A stretch of 64,000 nt of DNA from the NCBI RefSeq assembly GCF_900102635.1, contig NZ_FMZQ01000016.1:1-64000 (forward strand). The letters are read 5' to 3'. Position numbers and translations under genes: made by a program. Source of the stretch: Ectopseudomonas chengduensis (GTDB lineage: Bacteria > Pseudomonadota > Gammaproteobacteria > Pseudomonadales > Pseudomonadaceae). This document shows, in pieces, positions 19,783-62,316 of this stretch; positions within the stretch are counted from its first letter, which is position 1; each line of letters starts with the position of its first letter. Below the pieces are notes generated by a model. The model worked only from the letters and a program-made list of their open reading frames with translations, ran no database searches and was not told where the DNA came from.

Positions 19783-19922
19783 CAGGTCGTTGAAAAACGT
19801 AGGCGAGGCAGTCAGTGCAAGGCAAAAACAGGCGAAAAAGCGCAGTTTACGAGTTGTAAATGAGCATTTTGAGCCTGTTTTTAACGCAGCAATGGCAACG
19901 CAGGTAGTTTTTCAGCAGCCTG
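19783..19922 (-). repeat. Dispersed palindromic repeat, copy 1 (MITE-like)
   Basis: About 140 bp with imperfect terminal inverted repeats (CAGG, 5 variable bases, TGAAAAAC on each side). Inside, AAAAACAGGC at 19824-19833 pairs with GCCTGTTTTT at 19873-19882, and TTTAC at 19846-19850 with GTAAA at 19856-19860, so the RNA would fold into a long hairpin. The core matches the reverse complement of 62210-62280 almost base for base. It contains no gene. It directly abuts the stop codon of the minus-strand gene starting at 20324. Confidence 0.75.
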
Positions 19923-61151: not shown

Positions 61152-62174
61152 ATGTCCCGCATGATCCGTTTTCATAAGTTCGGCGATGCCGATGTGCTCC
61201 AGTACGAAGAGGTTCCGACCCCTGTGCCCGGCCCTGGCGAAGTCTTGGTGCGCGTTCAGGCCGTCGGCCTGGGCTGGAAAGACGTGCTGTGGCGTCAGAA
61301 CCTGGCGTCCGAACAGGCCAAGCTTCCGGCCGGCACCGGTTTTGAACTGGCCGGTACAGTGGCTGTGCTGGGCGAGGGCGTGAGCGACTTCGAAGTCGGC
61401 ACCGCCGTTGCCGGCTTCCCGGCGGGTACGCCGAATCGTTATCCGACCTGGGGCGATCTGGTGCTGATGCCCAGCCATGCCCTGACTCGTTATCCCGACG
61501 TGCTCAGTCCGGTCGAAGCCAGCGTTCATTACACCAGCCTGCTGTTCGGCTACCTGGCACTGAACGATCTCGCTCACCTCAAGCCTGGCCAGCATGTGTT
61601 GATCACTGAGGCCAGCCACTGCATGGCACCACAGACCGTGCAACTGGCCAAGGCGCTGGGTGCCAAGGTCATCGTATCCACCAGTTCTTCGGAGGATCGC
61701 GAGTTCCTGCGTGGCCTGGGTGCCGACAAGGTGATCGCCACCGAGGAACAGGACCTGGTCCTGGAAGTCGAGCGCTACACCGAAGGCAAGGGTGTCGAGG
61801 TGATTCTCGACCAGTGTGCCGGCCCGCAGATGAAGCTGCTGGGTGATATCGCCGCGCCGCGTGGCAAGCTGATCCTGTACGGCATCAATGGCGGCAACGA
61901 TACGGCTTTCCCTGCCTGCGCCGCATTCAAGAAGCACCTGCAGTTCTTCCGTCACTGCGTGCTGGATTTCACCGGGTGCCCGGAGCTGGGAATCGAGCCG
62001 AACAATGATGCCGTGCAACGCGCGCTCACGCACATCAATCAGATGACTGCGGACCGCCTGCTGACGCCGGTGATCGACAAGGTGTTCGACTTCGAAGATT
62101 TCGTCGAAGCGCATCGCTACATGGAAACCTGCCCGAACCGCGGGCGGGTGGCCCTGAAACTGGCCACGGATTAG
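61152..62174 (+). CDS. mexS: MexS-like zinc-independent oxidoreductase
   Basis: 340-aa MDR-superfamily quinone-oxidoreductase-like protein. Position and sequence (MSRMIRFHKFGDADVLQYEE; LKPGQHVLITEASHCMAPQTV for cofactor binding) match MexS, which detoxifies an electrophilic metabolite and thereby keeps MexT inactive. ATG 61152 has GAGG six bases upstream. It is divergent from mexT as in P. aeruginosa. Its stop codon TAG falls inside the terminal repeat of a dispersed element. Confidence 0.9.
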   Translation: MSRMIRFHKFGDADVLQYEEVPTPVPGPGEVLVRVQAVGLGWKDVLWRQNLASEQAKLPAGTGFELAGTVAVLGEGVSDFEVGTAVAGFPAGTPNRYPTWGDLVLMPSHALTRYPDVLSPVEASVHYTSLLFGYLALNDLAHLKPGQHVLITEASHCMAPQTVQLAKALGAKVIVSTSSSEDREFLRGLGADKVIATEEQDLVLEVERYTEGKGVEVILDQCAGPQMKLLGDIAAPRGKLILYGINGGNDTAFPACAAFKKHLQFFRHCVLDFTGCPELGIEPNNDAVQRALTHINQMTADRLLTPVIDKVFDFEDFVEAHRYMETCPNRGRVALKLATD

Positions 62175-62316
62175 GCTCTGTACAAAAGTGCCTGCGCTCG
62201 GTGATGCTGCGTTAAAAACAGGCTCAGAATGCTCATTTACAGCTCGTAAACTGCGCTTCTTCGCCTGTTTTTGCCTTGCCTGACCTTCGCTCGACGACTT
62301 TTCGCACAGACCCTAA
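62171..62316 (+). repeat. Dispersed palindromic repeat, copy 2 (MITE-like)
   Basis: About 146 bp. Terminal inverted repeats TTAGGCTCTGTACAAAAGT and, on the other strand, TTAGGGTCTGTGCGAAAAGT differ at a few positions. The core repeats the AAAAACAGGC / GCCTGTTTTT hairpin (62214-62223, 62263-62272) of copy 1. The left terminal repeat includes the TAG stop of mexS. No coding capacity. Confidence 0.75.

Follow-up and report, generated by a model that had tools for sequence, protein, structure and literature searches.

Dispersed repeats of Ectopseudomonas chengduensis with a conserved hairpin core and differing ends

The two repeats described here were found in a window of 64,000 nucleotides, the whole stretch of E. 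chengduensis DNA analyzed, and belong to a family defined by a hairpin core. On balance, and by a limited preference, the copies are explained as non-autonomous transposons, in which a selected folded core is combined with borrowed, swappable tips and internal cassettes. The original prediction had described two copies with a common core and few mismatches, and the own-genome search agreed, giving 80 bp in common at 95% identity (E 1.8e-29). Its descriptions of two differing end types were also correct: copy 1 ends in the imperfect inverted sequences CAGGTCGTTGAAAAACG / GTTTTTCAGCAGCCTG and copy 2, on the opposite strand, in GGCTCTGTACAAAAGTGCC / CGACTTTTCGCACAGACCC, and no alignment was possible between the outermost 15–20 nt of the two. 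The parts of both copies were located as follows.

19783..19922, + strand: copy 1, whole element, tip type A, without optional modules (own-genome search, site comparison)
19783..19799, + strand: copy 1 left tip, type A, resembling the ends of an IS5-family insertion sequence (IS) in genome G078 (L334)
19800..19816, + strand: copy 1 left subterminal stretch, common to type B copies
19817..19891, + strand: copy 1 conserved hairpin core (match of covariance model R1, 94 bits; pair counts)
19892..19906, + strand: copy 1 right subterminal stretch
19907..19922, + strand: copy 1 right tip, type A, inverted
about 62174..62313, − strand: copy 2, whole element, tip type C
62295..62313, − strand: copy 2 left tip, type C, resembling the ends of IS5-family IS in L232 and L341
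62205..62279, − strand: copy 2 conserved hairpin core (covariance model R1)
62174..62192, − strand: copy 2 right tip, type C, inverted

Allowing up to 3 mismatches, a core 21-mer occurred twice in the window against an expectation of 0 from 100 shuffles, and the folding of copies 1 and 2 was better than that of every dinucleotide shuffle (z of -5.3 and -3.7, respectively). Copy 1 is flanked by TGAA and TCAG, that is, without a target duplication.

Spread and constraint of the hairpin core

The dispersed family that had been proposed is real and far larger than anticipated, since it extends to two phyla and, in the 5.41-Mb genome of the strain itself, to about 72 distinct core-bearing places, all of which were fetched. 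Queries with copy 1 and copy 2 gave at least 47 and at least 41 matches in this genome, and a core 13-mer with at most one mismatch was found at 71 places, versus 1 for the reversed control. Two contigs of the assembly, C25 and C31 (L225, L231), start at base 1 exactly on an IS1182 end; contig breaks therefore track IS1182, and some copies may be missing.

The superfamily core, GARRAAGCGSAGTKTAC-N5-GTMAATGAGCATTYYGA, recurs in Pseudomonadota and Bacteroidota. When a genome was counted at an R1 match of E ≤ 0.001, the positives numbered 72 among 200 Pseudomonadota genomes and 19 among 148 from Bacteroidota, the phylum to which an Alistipes MAG belongs. Copy numbers of 10 to 150 in a genome are frequent, and all 12 genomes reached through loci carried 12 to 150 copies each by the same model. 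Named genomes were also scanned with GTAAATGAGCATTYYGA, a 17-mer of the right arm, yielding at least 119 stretches. The left hairpin half, which is absent from this search pattern, was present in its standard form in 107 of the 122 matches listed and as a module variant in another 12, the remaining ones listed being two partial variants and one chance match in a coding region. The hosts included Pseudomonas, Stutzerimonas, Azomonas, Halomonas, Salinicola, Marinobacter, Methylococcaceae, Nitrosomonadales and Desulfobacterales, as well as Alistipes, Bacteroidaceae, Prevotellaceae and Tannerella, and the core was also carried by 16 plasmid records. No matches were obtained in the E. coli genomes searched or in the phage records searched. 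In one Bacteroidota genome (G296; contigs C23, C35, C37 and C49; L277) cores occur in same-strand pairs with a spacing of about 100–130 bp, so tandem copies exist.

A viral collection gave 44 matches to GTAAATGAGCATTYYGA, nine of which passed the left-half test; L360 was a further variant by eye, and the others were mostly coding. Additionally, four viral contigs start directly 3' of the core and at the same position, after AACGCxGT (L360/L387 in G458, L377/L388 in G459, L374 and L359). Two of them measure 37–39 kb and one 42 kb, and one is an 11-kb fragment. The L360 record, with Mor and GemA genes (Pfam) at its other end, is therefore Mu-like. Two of the four contigs have the other half of the element, along with a short direct repeat, at the opposite end of their record, and two further contigs that share this phage end, L390 and L396, are located elsewhere. 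Phage targeting of the element is suggested by these records, but not proven.

The structure of the core was evaluated by RNAalifold on 30 diverse cores (alignment A1), which gave 22 pairs; compensatory change was seen in 16. The covariation score was 0.512, compared to 0.170 ± 0.015 in shuffled alignments and at most 0.143 when the structure was slid. On 104 distinct rows the score was 0.429 versus 0.140 and both sides had changed in 19 of the 22 pairs; this larger alignment was fitted to the model and is biased towards structure. Unpaired positions were constrained as much as the pairs, and the tandem G.A steps, the bulged S and the G.T closing pair were retained in approximately 90–99% of 144 copies. 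Conservation of the right arm is inflated by the search pattern, but that of the left arm is not, and left-arm bases outside the pattern were conserved at 91–99%. The outer stems are wholly diverged between Pseudomonas and Bacteroidota, and the core is almost invariant. Since purely mutational copying within a palindrome would erase the asymmetries that are retained, selection on the folded form is inferred, acting on the core across Pseudomonadota and Bacteroidota. The earlier reading of the core as the conserved unit was thus upheld by its presence in two phyla, its strong compensatory pairing and its differing ends.

Ends, matching insertion sequences and target sites

The outer arms are complementary within copies (score of 12.3, versus 7.4 between copies; 187 copies), and their sequences differ among copies. 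At least six end types (A–F) plus private ends were distinguished in the own genome, with more types in Bacteroidota, Nitrosomonadales and others. Many E-type copies have ends that are private yet mutually complementary, and one locus (L271) combines an E-like tip with a subterminal stretch otherwise found with Nitrosomonadales tips.

The tips were compared with a sample of IS made up of PF01609 loci from seven related genomes plus 20 more stretches off the same list. Type D tips match the ends of IS1182-family IS in the own genome and its relatives (L225, L323–L326, L328, L329, L332, L336), two copies of which, L225 and L231, carry D-type tips in the own genome. Type C tips match the ends of IS5-family elements of 895–910 bp (L232, L341), and type A tips those of an IS5-family element of 1.3 kb (L334). 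The type B tip matches one clean end beside an IS5 gene (L337), and type B ends are probably of the IS5 family, judging by this likeness. No IS bearing type E tips was found among the IS loci searched. In all cases the likeness is limited to 14–19 bp; the interiors of the matching IS are unrelated to the element, and the two transposase families have only distant mutual similarity.

Duplication of the target was clearest for type A, in which an exact 4-bp duplication, mostly YTAR, was present in 20 of 29 copies versus 19% of mismatched pairs, and at least three of the four bases agreed in 26 of 29 versus 59%. Exact duplications were seen in 3 of 7 type B and 1 of 4 type D copies. None of the four type C copies had one at the boundary set by the script, and moving this boundary by one base gave YTA/G...C/TAR (slashes mark the boundary) in all four. 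Most E and private ends showed no visible duplication. For type D the flanking hairpin score was 8.9 versus 5.6 (n = 4, a small sample), and three of the four copies lie inside terminator-like inverted repeats, as IS1182 copies do. The end type therefore determines the target, which was demonstrated for type A, the sample for type D being small. A mid-position in terminator-like inverted repeats was noted for IS1182 itself (L323, L332, L336) and for IS1182-tipped elements (L025, L029, L065, L166), and some of these insertions have a 4-bp duplication in the loop.

The elements hence have the MITE traits of small size (about 120–220 bp), lack of a recurring gene, terminal inverted repeats and target-site duplication, but fail another, because the ends are not common to the family and the interior is not IS-derived; it is the core that is common instead.

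Tip exchange and change of the interior

The swappable ends that had been postulated were borne out by identical 54-nt cores with A and B tips (L003, L007) and by identical 54-nt arms with C and D tips (copy 2 and L025, of IS1182 type). The proposed grouping by end type was run on core trees, and the pattern of one end per core lineage was not found. In the tree of 24 own-genome copies the tip label changed 12 times, compared to a shuffled mean of 13.4 and a minimum of 6; across species, with 80 labelled copies, 29 changes were counted versus a shuffled mean of 53 and a minimum of 10. Since the latter number lies below that of the shuffled labels, exchange is occasional and not free: tips are inherited with the core for a time and then swapped. 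These trees, built from 54 columns, are weak; of 287 copies, 164 were omitted for want of an assigned tip. In the own-genome survey the automatic tip calls misassign a few copies, L076, L077 and L043 being type C by eye.

Four sites in type A copies can hold optional inserts (m0–m3), and all four combinations were present for each of the pairs m1/m2, m1/m3 and m2/m3. Inserts m2 and m3 are versions of a single mini-hairpin (YYGGR, a 4-bp stem and a CRNN loop), located in either arm at an internal loop. The site of copy 1 is empty in G078, where the flanks are 98–99% identical, and in G064, and relatives without copy 1 are also without its tips. G063 (flanks 96–97% identical) shares this insertion, including its ends and flanks, and bears three extra modules. 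Likewise, at the site compared between L069 and L120 an m2 insert is present in P. composti and absent in the own genome, with the right arm altered and the left arm not. These differences at the same site indicate that interiors change while the insertion stays. Another site, that of L096, is empty in L194. Moreover, in several Pseudomonas species the same internal loops hold long cassettes of the GGGAGTAACAGCCGAAGGCTGGCCCGAAGGGCGAGCGCCAGCGAATCAA type (L083, L090, L095, L102, L103, L114, L170, L218), and that of L090 appears to pair with a matching 3' cassette.

Proposed mechanism, alternatives and related elements

In the proposed mechanism, the tips of about 14–19 bp would belong, as terminal inverted repeats, to separate IS of the IS5 and IS1182 families and would choose the transposase and the landing site. 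The core is a 22-bp hairpin with near-invariant tandem G.A internal loops, which selection on its fold would preserve, and at its internal loops optional mini-hairpin cassettes are gained and lost in place. That IS transposases move the copies in trans is inferred; no transposition was observed, and recognition of the tips rests only on sequence match and target preference. With less certainty, it is inferred that an arm acquires a new tip or module through recombination, either with an IS end or with a different copy, and that hairpin-templated repair copies the change to the other arm. Such copying was not seen happening, and at L069/L120 only the right arm had changed. As the whole element folds back on itself, such arm-to-arm copying is proposed to keep changing ends matched. 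Least certain are the inferences that the core acts in a folded, single-stranded form, more likely as DNA that becomes exposed when it is replicated or transposed than as RNA, that some widely conserved host factor, none of which was found, reads it, and that elements carrying the core thereby gain an advantage in spreading. The broader reading is put forward tentatively, at somewhat less than even confidence: a cross-phylum mobile class whose identity would reside in the folded core with its cassettes, whose ends would be replaceable and kept matched via its own hairpin, and in which a single core lineage could pass between transposase families and phyla.

The core could instead be transcribed and act as a mobile structured non-coding RNA, such as a regulator, a stabilizer or a ribozyme-like part, that transposition only spreads. 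This is unlikely, though it retains some support. An RNA would suit the covariation combined with tandem G.A loops that are non-canonical yet conserved and a G.T pair that is fixed, as well as the helix-like optional modules at internal loops and some excess of G.T over A.C in the stems. Such an excess would indicate that a single strand is the folded one. It amounted to 48 to 25 over all 106 rows (p 0.01, related sequences); with the rows reduced to 46 the counts were 23 to 16 (p 0.34, not significant), and in related copies the outer parts gave 177 to 98. However, the stems are almost strictly Watson-Crick, and no gene-orientation bias was detected in 135 high-GC copies with crude gene calls: between tandem genes the core had the same orientation in 37 cases and the opposite one in 38, and read-in from neighbours was sense in 69 and antisense in 72. 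Rfam gave no gathering-level match in the window, nor did any of its families match the element at E ≤ 1 across nine loci, and no common promoter is evident, the tips being different (promoters were not scanned). It had been suggested that the folded core or its RNA matters. The folded core is supported by covariation, whereas a role of RNA was not shown, in view of the symmetric orientation and the absence of an Rfam family, and the results lean, weakly, towards a single DNA strand.

Two other explanations were considered. That the copies are ordinary MITEs, independent IS-derived miniatures whose likeness in the core reflects recent horizontal spread and whose ends have mutated apart, seems improbable, even though type A copies have IS5-like tips with exact 4-bp duplications, copies in one genome are often near identical and tips partly track the core lineage. 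Such an origin is difficult to reconcile with an almost invariant core between outer stems that have diverged completely from Pseudomonas to Bacteroidota, with an interior not derived from the matching IS, or with tips that match two only distantly similar transposase families. There is very little to recommend the core as a mobile unit in its own right, with palindromes or other miniature elements as the sites of insertion and the ends being its targets. The private, complementary ends of many E-type copies would be expected in that case, but the target duplications lie outside the tips and not at the core boundary, relatives lacking copy 1 also lack its tips, and no recurring gene was found within 1.5 kb of the core at loci L100–L218. 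The preferred reading is that of non-autonomous transposons with a selected core and borrowed tips.

REP/REPIN elements with RAYT are high-copy imperfect hairpins with conserved mismatches; unlike them, the present elements have terminal repeats, target duplications and IS5/IS1182 tips, and showed no recurring neighbour gene at loci L100–L218. BOX elements and BIMEs are built of exchangeable modules and vary by units repeated in a row, whereas the present elements have cassettes nested in a hairpin and tips drawn from several IS families. Normal MITE families are defined by their ends, in contrast to the present elements, which are defined by the core. According to the part of the source that was available, MITEPsy1 of Pseudomonas savastanoi pv. 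phaseolicola has IS5-like terminal repeats and a 4-bp CTAG/YTAA duplication and is moved in trans, its transposition having been seen in vivo (PMC3189936). As far as that partial text goes, the present elements resemble bacterial MITEs such as MITEPsy1 in size (about 100–150 bp), IS5-like terminal repeats and the 4-bp duplication. MITEPsy1 was rejected as a member of the family, a MITEPsy1-like plasmid copy (L386) being without the core, and the exact whole-element MITEPsy1 pattern was found in 0 of 249 genus genomes. From what could be consulted of PMC2718517, the R0 and R2 repeats of P. fluorescens are intergenic hairpins with ends identical to those of local IS, and R178 is a 101-bp repeat with internal repeats present in all three strains. 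All three are, on that partial account, intergenic hairpin repeats like the present ones, with the ends of R0 and R2 being IS ends. R178 is a candidate for the same element, although no sequence comparison was made. No published description of the element was found in the limited, open-licence literature searched, and a core common to different phyla is not described in the available portions of PMC3189936, PMC10969869, PMC2718517 and PMC1590033.

MITEs are usually found, named and explained via their ends, and a class defined by its core and able to swap its ends would escape such classification. It would also explain how miniature elements outlast the transposons that feed them. Furthermore, a hairpin conserved in two phyla would point to an unknown cellular reader, and it raises the question of what makes the core worth keeping while its surroundings change.
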